From positions 1 to 64,000 of the forward strand of contig NZ_SOEE01000007.1 of assembly GCF_004366035.1 (NCBI RefSeq): 64,000 bases of DNA, read 5' to 3'. Both the position numbers and the translations under genes were made by a program. Positions 17,409 to 58,802 of the stretch are shown here, piece by piece. A model generated the notes under the pieces. The model was not told where the DNA came from, searched no databases, and worked only from the letters and a program-made list of their open reading frames with translations. Positions within the stretch are counted from its first letter, which is position 1; each line of letters starts with the position of its first letter. The DNA comes from Cytobacillus oceanisediminis. Lineage in GTDB: Bacteria; Bacillota; Bacilli; Bacillales; Cytobacillaceae.

Positions 17409-19304
17409 ATGGATATTCTAAAAAAAATTGAGATGTACAGACACGAGGAAGAAAAGCTTAAATGGGAAGGGACTTTTGGAGAGTATTTAGAAATTGTTAA
17501 AGAGAAGCCATGGGTTGCCCAGTCAGCACATTCACGGGTATATAATATGATTAAGGATGCCGGTGTCGAAGAAGTGAAGGGGCAAAAAAGATATCAATTT
17601 TTCAGCAATCAGCTCTTTGGATTAGAAGAAGCATTGGAAAGGCTGGTAGAAGAGTATTTCCATCCTGCTGCCAAACGCCTCGATGTCCGCAAAAGGATTC
17701 TTTTATTAATGGGGCCGGTCAGCGGCGGTAAATCAACTTTAGTGACAATGCTAAAGAGAGGTTTAGAGCAATATTCTCACGCTGATAGGGGAGCGGTCTA
17801 TGCTATTAAGGGCTGTCCAATGCATGAAGATCCGCTTCATTTAATCCCTCATCACCTCCGCAAGGACTTTCATGATGAATATGGAATAAGAATTGAAGGA
17901 AACCTCTCGCCATTGAATAGTATGCGTCTCGAACAGGAGTATGGCGGCCGCATAGAAGATGTTTTAATCGAAAGAATTATTTTCTCAGAAGACCGCAGGG
18001 TGGGGATTGGAACCTTTAGCCCTTCAGATCCAAAATCTCAGGATATTGCCGATCTGACTGGAAGCATTGACTTTTCAACCATTGCAGAATATGGTTCAGA
18101 ATCAGATCCTCGTGCCTATCGTTTCGATGGGGAACTAAATAAAGCAAACCGAGGAATGATGGAATTCCAGGAAATGCTGAAGTGCGACGAGAAATTTTTA
18201 TGGCATTTATTATCCCTGACTCAGGAAGGCAACTTTAAAGCTGGCCGCTTCGCCTTGATTTCGGCAGATGAGCTAATTGTTGCTCACACGAATGAAACAG
18301 AGTATCGTTCATTCATTTCCAATAAAAAGAATGAAGCTCTGCATTCCAGAATTATCGTTATGCCAATCCCATATAATTTAAAGGTTTCTGAGGAAGAGAA
18401 GATTTACGATAAAATGATCCGTGAAAGCGATGTTTCCAATGTGCATATTGCACCGCATACCCTGAGGGTTGCAGCGATGTTTACGATTTTAACCCGCATG
18501 AAGGATCCGAAAAAAGGCGATATAGACTTAGTTAAAAAAATGCGTTTGTATGATGGAGAGAGCGTTGAAGGCTATAACAGGGCTGATGTGGAAGAATTGA
18601 AAAAAGAGCATGCAGATGAAGGCATGAGCGGTATTGACCCGCGCTATGTCATCAACAGAATCTCTTCTACAATCATCCGCAAAAATATCACAAGCATCAA
18701 TGCCCTGGATGTATTGCGGTCACTTAAAGAAGGATTGGATCAGCATCCATCCATTACTCCAGAACTGAAGGAAAGATACCTGAACTTTATTTCTCTGGCC
18801 CGCAAAGAGTATGATGATATTGCTAAGAAAGAAGTACAAAAGGCATTTGTTTATTCTTATGAAGAATCTGCGAAAACGCTTATGGAAAACTACCTTGATA
18901 ATGTTGAAGCATACTGCAATAAAGCGAAGCTGCGCGACCCATTAACCGGTGAGGAAATCAGTCCGGATGAAAAGCTGATGCGCTCAATCGAAGAGCAGAT
19001 CGGTATCTCTGAGAATGCGAAAAAAGCATTCAGGGAGGAAATCCTCATCCGTATCTCAGCTTACGCAAGAAAAGGCAAGCGCTTTGATTATAATTCACAT
19101 GACCGTCTGCGTGAAGCTATCCAAAAGAAGCTTTTCGCTGACCTGAAAGATGTCGTGAAGATCACCACATCTTCAAAAACGCCGGATGAGCAGCAGCTGA
19201 AGAAAGTGAATGAAGTTGTAGCAAGATTAATTGACGAACATGGCTATAACTCAACATCAGCAAACGAACTGCTCCGCTATGTCGGAAGCTTGCTGAATCG
19301 TTAA
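17409..19304 (+). CDS. prkA: Serine protein kinase PrkA
   Basis: A 631-residue AAA+ ATPase with a C-terminal kinase-like region, the same length as B. subtilis PrkA. The Walker A motif is GPVSGGKSTLV near residue 102. The N-terminus (EMYRHEEEKLKWEGTFGEYL) and VAQSAHSRVYNMI are family signatures. PrkA is induced in sporulation (SigE in B. subtilis) and in enterobacteria its homologue YeaG works with YeaH. Here the partner gene yhbH lies 1.3 kb downstream, and spoVR, the third member of the conserved trio, at 56.4 kb. The start ATG at 17409 follows GGGGGAGG. Confidence 0.96.
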   Translation: MDILKKIEMYRHEEEKLKWEGTFGEYLEIVKEKPWVAQSAHSRVYNMIKDAGVEEVKGQKRYQFFSNQLFGLEEALERLVEEYFHPAAKRLDVRKRILLLMGPVSGGKSTLVTMLKRGLEQYSHADRGAVYAIKGCPMHEDPLHLIPHHLRKDFHDEYGIRIEGNLSPLNSMRLEQEYGGRIEDVLIERIIFSEDRRVGIGTFSPSDPKSQDIADLTGSIDFSTIAEYGSESDPRAYRFDGELNKANRGMMEFQEMLKCDEKFLWHLLSLTQEGNFKAGRFALISADELIVAHTNETEYRSFISNKKNEALHSRIIVMPIPYNLKVSEEEKIYDKMIRESDVSNVHIAPHTLRVAAMFTILTRMKDPKKGDIDLVKKMRLYDGESVEGYNRADVEELKKEHADEGMSGIDPRYVINRISSTIIRKNITSINALDVLRSLKEGLDQHPSITPELKERYLNFISLARKEYDDIAKKEVQKAFVYSYEESAKTLMENYLDNVEAYCNKAKLRDPLTGEEISPDEKLMRSIEEQIGISENAKKAFREEILIRISAYARKGKRFDYNSHDRLREAIQKKLFADLKDVVKITTSSKTPDEQQLKKVNEVVARLIDEHGYNSTSANELLRYVGSLLNR

Positions 19305-58015: not shown

Positions 58016-58053
58016 GATATTTGCTTTATATTTATTGATAAACTGAGGAAAGG

Positions 58054-58341
58054 ATGATGATCTTGAAAATTTCAGATTCAGCTCGGGATCTGCTGAAACA
58101 GGTTCTTCAAGAGAAAAATACTGGCGGCATTAGAGTTTATTTTGCAGGCTTTGGCTGAGGAGGCCCGCAAATTGGACTGGCTCTGGATGAGCCGGAAGCA
58201 GATGATATGATTGAAACAATAAATGAAATCCAGGTGGCAATCGACCCGGAAATCAAACCGCATACGGAAAGTATGATTCTAGACTATGATCAGGAAAATG
58301 AAAGACTAGTCTTGTTAGGCAATGAAAGCGACTGCTGCTAA
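58054..58341 (+). CDS. HesB/IscA-like selenoprotein (in-frame UGA = Sec35)
   Basis: A 95-residue A-type iron-sulfur carrier-like protein. Reading through TGA at 58156-58158 gives IRVYFAGFG-Sec-GGPQIGLALDE, so the UGA replaces the Cys of the family motif GFGCGGP. The frame continues 60 codons to TAA and ends in the Cys pair DCC, as the family does. A SECIS-like hairpin lies at 58177-58195: CTGGCTC, loop TGGAT, GAGCCGG; its loop begins 25 bases after the UGA, with G in the loop as SelB requires. HesB-like selenoproteins are a known family. Start ATG at 58054 behind GAGGAAAGG; ATG 58057 and TTG 58063 are alternatives. Role: probably Fe-S or sulfur/selenium transfer beside the persulfide regulon. 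No sel genes are in the window. Confidence 0.85.
58177..58195 (+). promoter_or_regulatory. Bacterial SECIS element
   Basis: Seven-pair stem CTGGCTC / GAGCCGG (one T-G pair) with five-base loop TGGAT. It lies inside the coding sequence downstream of the UGA, the arrangement used by bacterial SelB. Confidence 0.75.
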
Positions 58342-58344
58342 ATC

Positions 58345-58372
58345 AAAAACACCCGCTTGGGTGTTTTTTTAT
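58345..58372 (+). terminator. Terminator of the selenoprotein gene
   Basis: AAAAACACCC / GGGTGTTTTTTT hairpin with a GCTT loop. Confidence 0.9.
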
Positions 58373-58457: not shown

Positions 58458-58802
58458 ATGCTGCTGATTTTTTTAACCTTGCTGCTAGGCAGTTTCCCAT
58501 TAATTAAAAGGTATTATCCTGTTAGAGACATCCCTTGTTATCATTTGGATCAATGCCTGCCCAAGGAAGGCATAGCACTGCTGGATGTCAGGGATTATAA
58601 TGTTTCCTGTCATTGTGAAATACCCGGAGCGATCAATCTGCCCATTCCATATATAAATAGGCATATAAAAGATATACCTTATAACCAAATCCATTTAGTT
58701 GCATCCAGTTCATTAGAGAAAAATATGGGAATAAGGTTGCTCCGAAAAAAAGGGTTTAAGATAGTTGGTTTTTCAATGCCTGATTGCCAATGTGTAAAAT
58801 AA
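58458..58802 (+). CDS. Degenerate rhodanese-like protein with CxC pairs
   Basis: A 114-residue protein with an N-terminal membrane helix (residues 1-16) and a rhodanese fold (LLDVRDYNV, then IPGAINLPIPYI). The catalytic loop, normally CxxGxRS, reads VASSSLEKNMG and has no Cys, so ordinary sulfurtransferase activity is unlikely. Instead it has unusual Cys pairs CHC at 51-53 and CQC at 110-112, besides Cys27 and Cys33. These could carry metal or persulfide. It precedes cstR by 21 bases and is under operator 1. Confidence 0.75.
   Translation: MLLIFLTLLLGSFPLIKRYYPVRDIPCYHLDQCLPKEGIALLDVRDYNVSCHCEIPGAINLPIPYINRHIKDIPYNQIHLVASSSLEKNMGIRLLRKKGFKIVGFSMPDCQCVK

Follow-up and report, generated by a model that had tools for sequence, protein, structure and literature searches.

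The window, by which we mean the whole 64-kb stretch of DNA analysed here, contains a small HesB/IscA-like gene that almost certainly encodes a selenoprotein, its in-frame UGA being decoded as selenocysteine (Sec). What is new here, as read from gene order, is that relatives of this gene, in Sec and in Cys form, recur in arsenic (ars) operons, and the explanation that we judge best overall is a probable one: a small selenoprotein related to A-type carriers, serving most likely in metalloid handling. Lists of HesB-like selenoproteins go back to at least 2006, and the review consulted here still describes their function as unclear; soil bacilli carrying Sec and Cys versions in the same kind of ars operon, including some species without Sec decoding, make the question of function directly testable.

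A single in-frame UGA in a HesB/IscA-like gene

Translation of positions 58054–58341 (+ strand) bore out a sequence-only reading, made before this analysis, of a single TGA in an otherwise open 95-codon frame. With TGA read as Sec the frame yields 95 residues (MMILKISDSARDLLKQVLQEKNTGGIRVYFAGFG-U-GGPQIGLALDEPEADD...NESDCC), the sole TGA lying at 58156–58158 and the stop codon TAA at 58339–58341. The same reading began the frame at ATG 58054; a start at TTG 58063 is more likely, because homologue starts align there (ATG, GTG or TTG at that codon, several homologues having no start upstream at all) and AGGAAAGG stands 9 nt ahead, so that the product is probably a protein of 92 aa with Sec at residue 32. 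The principal features of the gene are as follows.

58063..58341, + strand: predicted HesB/IscA-like selenoprotein gene, probable TTG start, 92 codons plus TAA (frame with TGA as Sec, PF01521 match, homologue starts aligned)
58156..58158, + strand: UGA codon predicted to be read as selenocysteine, residue 32, in the motif GFG-U-GGP (TGA in 50 homologues, TGC/TGT in 12; Sec machinery present)
58046..58053, + strand: Shine-Dalgarno-like AGGAAAGG, 9 nt before TTG 58063 and conserved in relatives
58333..58338, + strand: C-terminal Cys-Cys pair, the last two residues, candidate further metal or metalloid ligands, kept in most Sec and Cys forms

The protein matches the HesB/IscA domain PF01521 with 31.7 bits (gathering threshold 26.3). 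Its best NCBIfam hit is TIGR01911 (HesB_rel_seleno), at 53–55.2 bits against a cut-off of 66.35, and NF038090 (IscA_HesB_Se) scores 48 bits against a cut-off of 85; all 28 of the 28 aligned members match both models. Because its scores fall below these cut-offs, the window protein appears to represent a sister or divergent branch and, by NCBI's rule, is no member of TIGR01911. Thus a HesB/IscA-like selenoprotein had been named correctly from the letters alone, in a family that is already known and on a branch that is divergent. Such selenoproteins have been described from Deltaproteobacteria, Clostridia and Actinobacteria (PMC1794560), and 90 of them have been counted (PMC5029168). Their published Sec motif is UxGP (PMC13188914), which GFG-U-GGP fits, and the window protein shares with them (TIGR01911; PMC1794560, PMC13188914) the HesB/IscA domain, Sec within UxGP and a SECIS element behind the UGA. 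Structure prediction was poor, with a mean pLDDT of 62 (five close sequences in the alignment).

Selenocysteine decoding machinery

A genome check for selA, selB, selC (tRNA-Sec) and selD, proposed in the sequence-only reading, returned all four: selA at 548 bits, selB at 375 bits (cut-off 242), selD at 419 bits and a tRNA-Sec with anticodon UCA at 60 bits. The selD gene holds an in-frame TGA of its own (context KGG-U-GCK) with a hairpin behind it. The expectation that selenoproteins would be rare in Bacillaceae did not hold, since, of 193 genomes from the same bacterial family, 172 have a selA that scores above its cut-off; in this lineage decoding of Sec is the norm. Together with the window gene, selD (L018 1531) and a HesB paralogue (L068) make three selenoprotein candidates noted in this genome.

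SECIS hairpin and selection around the UGA

Behind the UGA lies a putative SECIS element, for which the spacing and fold given in the sequence-only reading (seven pairs, loop TGGAT, 25 bases from UGA to loop) were confirmed:

58177..58195, + strand: SECIS hairpin CUGGCUC-UGGAU-GAGCCGG, 7 bp (fold; lowest synonymous rate of all 9-codon windows; absent from Cys forms)

The loop UGGAU occupies 58184–58188, and the UGA is separated from the stem by 18 nt and from the loop by 25 nt. A published model of bacterial SECIS elements specifies a loop of 3–9 nt, a stem of 4–16 bp, G within the first two loop positions, 16–37 nt from UGA to loop and a minimum free energy of at most −7.5 (PMC13188914); the window hairpin agrees with it throughout (5-nt loop UGGAU, 7-bp stem, 25 nt, and −13.1 kcal/mol when the 50 nt following the UGA are folded). 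The window holds a single copy of the 17-nt hairpin core, against a chance expectation of 0.09 (up to 3 mismatches). Folding energy was rejected as evidence for the SECIS, because the whole 71-nt stretch is not more stable than its own shuffles (z −0.92); the case for the hairpin is one of conservation, and the synonymous-rate test was used instead.

Among 18 genus-level orthologues, the proportion of synonymous differences (pS) was 0.014 in the hairpin codons (+6 to +14 after the UGA) versus 0.53 in codons +15 to +60, and a blind sliding window of nine codons placed the pS minimum of the whole gene exactly at the hairpin. The Leu codon at +9 is CTG in 50/50 Sec forms and TTA or TTG in 12/12 Cys forms, CTG making up 18% of Leu codons in neighbouring genes; given this difference between the forms, the synonymous freeze goes beyond protein constraint alone. 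Purifying selection acts on both sides of the UGA, with dN/dS of 0.095 before it and 0.132 behind it in the same orthologues, and the objection that the gene might be decaying accordingly failed.

A search across the bacterial family gave a match in 151 of 193 genomes and, among the ~150 matches listed, nearly all hold exactly one TGA. The TGA occupies the same site in all 18 genus-level orthologues compared and is present in 50 homologues read in detail, so a sequencing error, another objection raised beforehand, is very unlikely; with selB and tRNA-Sec present in the genome, none of the objections named in the sequence-only reading held. Individual relatives depart from this pattern. One (L065/L142; G010:C2:43781-44056) has TAA in place of TGA at the Sec site, with gene and hairpin intact and the full Sec machinery in its genome; the sister genome G009 has TGA there, and the TAA in G010 is either a null mutation or a sequencing error. 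In L063 and L048 (C. firmus NBRC 15306) the N-terminal frame of the orthologue is disturbed, by pseudogene formation or an assembly error.

Sec/Cys exchange among homologues

Aligning the homologues for Sec/Cys exchange, as had been suggested, revealed a natural exchange that follows the presence of the machinery. Seven genomes lacking selA (G063, G066, G165, G169, G172, G173, G176) carry a family gene with Cys at the site and no hairpin, and in the six of these that were searched (G063, G066, G165, G172, G173, G176) neither a full selB nor a tRNA-Sec was found (E up to 1e-9, 1e-60). In G171, also without selA, a UGA copy is missing its N-terminal part. The correspondence is not absolute, because some machinery-bearing genomes (G030, G032 and G039, and by selA G105 and G127) also hold the Cys form. 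Where Sec forms have UGGP or UGQP, the Cys forms mostly have CCGP, with CEKS in G032.

Recurrent linkage to arsenic operons

Flanks of up to 8 kb were screened with reference ars proteins taken from an annotated C. firmus plasmid. Among loci picked by similarity to the window protein and not by neighbourhood, several of them too closely related to count as independent, two or more ars genes lay upstream on the same strand in 23/52 Sec forms and 17/18 Cys forms (40/70 together), compared to ars genes in 0/20 control regions from the same genome set; the other 29/52 Sec forms are not next to ars genes. The paralogue in the same genome as the window gene (G000:C3:327117-327389) follows arsR, arsB and arsC, and two orthologues within the clade of the window gene (L062 and L131) stand directly behind arsR-B-C-D-A and are followed by the same persulfide block as the window gene. 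Immediately upstream of the window copy, on its own strand, there are no ars genes; spoVR is found there instead. In a tree of 92 columns, which is poorly resolved, the window copy groups in a clade of mostly spoVR-linked genes, which itself lies inside a family where every Cys relative except one is linked to ars genes; ars genes may have been lost at the window copy or gained in L062 and L131, the tree fitting either. The record holding L062 (JAGGRA010000048.1, ‘Pseudomonas sp. ISL-84’) has genes of Cytobacillus type along the whole of the stretch read; its label appears to be wrong.

On annotated plasmids, the Cys form occurs in ars operons of Peribacillus, Sporosarcina, Paenibacillus, Niallia, Alicyclobacillus and Stenotrophomonas, frequently with trxB and the gene for a dual-specificity phosphatase next to it. 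Many Cys homologues are annotated as ‘adhesin’, a name that looks misleading. The prediction that automatic annotation would miss the gene fits with five RefSeq Cytobacillus plasmids carrying Sec paralogues, for which the PLSDB table (itself incomplete) lists no feature at the matched position; this small gene is overlooked by current annotation. Two Sec forms on Cytobacillus plasmids (L113, NZ_CP097350.1; L118, NZ_CP107028.1) end ars operons, and the plasmid table lists no annotation for them.

The closest described arrangement is that of the HesB-like orf7 in the ars1 cluster of Bacillus sp. CDB3 (PMC4562236, PMC5481582), where a HesB-like gene is found towards the end of arsRYCDAT-orf7-orf8, next to the gene for a dual-specificity phosphatase, an arrangement of the kind that we find in other Bacillales. 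Compared by description only, the CDB3 orf7 differs in being described without selenocysteine; the Cys forms found here, mostly CCGP, have no SECIS. The window protein is set apart from the TIGR01911 set by its scores below cut-off and by its family's ars linkage, which goes unmentioned for HesB-like selenoproteins in the literature searched: no paper joining the two was found in the open-licence literature, and the link may be published elsewhere.

Neighbourhood and regulation of the window gene

Upstream of the window gene lies spoVR, followed by a hairpin and T-run. A terminator-like hairpin directly follows the stop codon of the window gene, which suggests that the gene forms its own transcription unit:

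58345..58368, + strand: intrinsic terminator-like hairpin, 10 pairs with a T tail, directly behind the stop codon
57960..57984, + strand: possible sigma-B-type promoter TATTAA-13-GGGTAT, a conserved block ~80 nt upstream of the start (a lead)

Downstream of the terminator, the persulfide block comprises a CsoR-type repressor (PF02583), rhodaneses, a DsrE-like protein, a TusA-rhodanese fusion and a rhodanese/beta-lactamase-fold protein (named from sequence). A rhodanese-like protein encoded at 58458–58802 (+) has SSS in place of the active-site Cys; it gives no Pfam match at 0.001 and is conserved in C. firmus relatives. The TATTAA-13-GGGTAT block is present in 10 of 11 aligned orthologous upstream regions (the eleventh, L061, has GATTAA-12-GGGTAT), is missing from other spoVR-linked copies (L129, L130, L132, L133, L141, L159), and sigB is present in the genome. 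Since the motif occurs near chance level (7 found versus 4.7 in shuffles), the putative promoter stands on conservation and is taken as a lead only. No sigma-70 promoter was found upstream of the window gene, and no ArsR operator was recognised by eye in the alignment of regions upstream of the window copy.

Proposed role and alternatives

Comparison strongly supports decoding of the UGA at 58156–58158 as Sec; the hairpin at 58177–58195 would recruit SelB with Sec-tRNA(UCA), whereupon the ribosome would read the UGA in this way. From alignment with solved IscA-type proteins, Sec32 would replace the first Cys ligand of the IscA-type fold, and the C-terminal Cys-Cys pair would supply the other ligands, working together with Sec32. 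Gene order, the CC/U exchange and the ligand pattern suggest that the selenolate and thiolates could bind As(III), or a soft metalloid like it, so that the protein would buffer or carry the metalloid alongside ArsD/ArsA. Metalloid handling is the most likely function because arsR-arsB-arsC-arsD-arsA operons often end with a close homologue, in Sec or in Cys form; a role related to arsenic is likely for the subfamily and less certain for the window copy itself, which may have left its ars partners or may never have had any and is now a solitary gene with spoVR on one side and the persulfide operon on the other, perhaps under a general-stress promoter. A tentative extension, which we regard as a serious possibility, is that the HesB-like selenoprotein subfamily now forms part of Bacillales arsenic defence, its selenolate and C-terminal Cys pair constituting an As(III) site, and that the CCGP version, which has a second Cys compared with UGGP, could replace it where Sec is not decoded. 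Sec has also been proposed as a metal(loid) ligand in SaoC, SaoB, UXX-star and Sec-type ArsM (PMC13188914); these protein families and operons are unrelated to the HesB-like protein of the window.

A selenoprotein for Fe-S cluster carriage or repair, akin to ErpA/IscA and linked to ars genes only through arsenite damage to Fe-S clusters and thiols, is rather unlikely. As in the A-type Fe-S carriers IscA, ErpA and SufA, PF01521 scores above gathering, and in the alignment the Sec falls on the Cys that comes first among those conserved in the IscA fold; there are weak ErpA/IscA matches, the solved relatives HI1723 and Aq_1857 are of IscA type, and the genome holds other IscA-like genes without an internal stop. 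The C-terminal ligand motif of IscA/ErpA is CGC (Cys-Gly-Cys). The window protein lacks this motif of the A-type carriers and ends in Asp-Cys-Cys, thus having Cys-Cys in place of CxC as well as Sec in place of Cys; moreover, no suf or isc genes were noted beside the window gene, and the ars linkage of 17/18 Cys forms also argues against this reading.

Improbable, in turn, is a selenoprotein for persulfide or selenium/sulfur trafficking. It would fit the position before the CstR/rhodanese/TusA operon, a conserved neighbour in most orthologues of the window clade, and in G175, G171 and G039 an operon of this kind contains or adjoins a distant HesB-like gene with a UGA; yet the window gene has its own terminator at 58345–58368, and more distant relatives lack this neighbourhood, whereas linkage to ars genes keeps reappearing. 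A pseudogene or truncated 31-residue product, with UGA acting as the plain stop that it is in table 11, is highly improbable: a few relatives are decayed (L088, L085) or carry TAA (L065), but the complete Sec machinery, purifying selection behind the UGA, the synonymous freeze of the hairpin and the exchange with Cys speak against it.

Other UGA-containing candidates

A scan of both strands of the 64-kb window for TGA with open frames and a SECIS-like hairpin returned two candidates, one of them the window gene. The second, at 19294, was set aside: its open runs are short (21 and 19 codons), and its 11-bp hairpin is probably terminator-like.

Elsewhere, a distant HesB-like gene combines a UGA with an intact SECIS-like hairpin (L098, G175:C2:381263-381496; L101, in G171; L173, 8001–8234, − strand), and it belongs to, or adjoins, a TusA/TauE-like/DsrE/rhodanese operon. 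In G175 and G171, the hosts of L098 and L101, searches found neither selA nor a full selB nor tRNA-Sec, and there the UGA gene may be a stranded gene or may reflect recent machinery loss or recent transfer. Because these two genomes without detectable machinery keep both features, a UGA with a hairpin is by itself no proof of decoding. Directly behind the TusA/DsrE/rhodanese operon of L173 (7400–7520, − strand) lies a short frame, CGKGS-U-GIPNKKSRSFFPPI-U-PGILVWLLVGV, with two UGA codons followed by a SECIS-like hairpin, which is possibly a further small selenoprotein.
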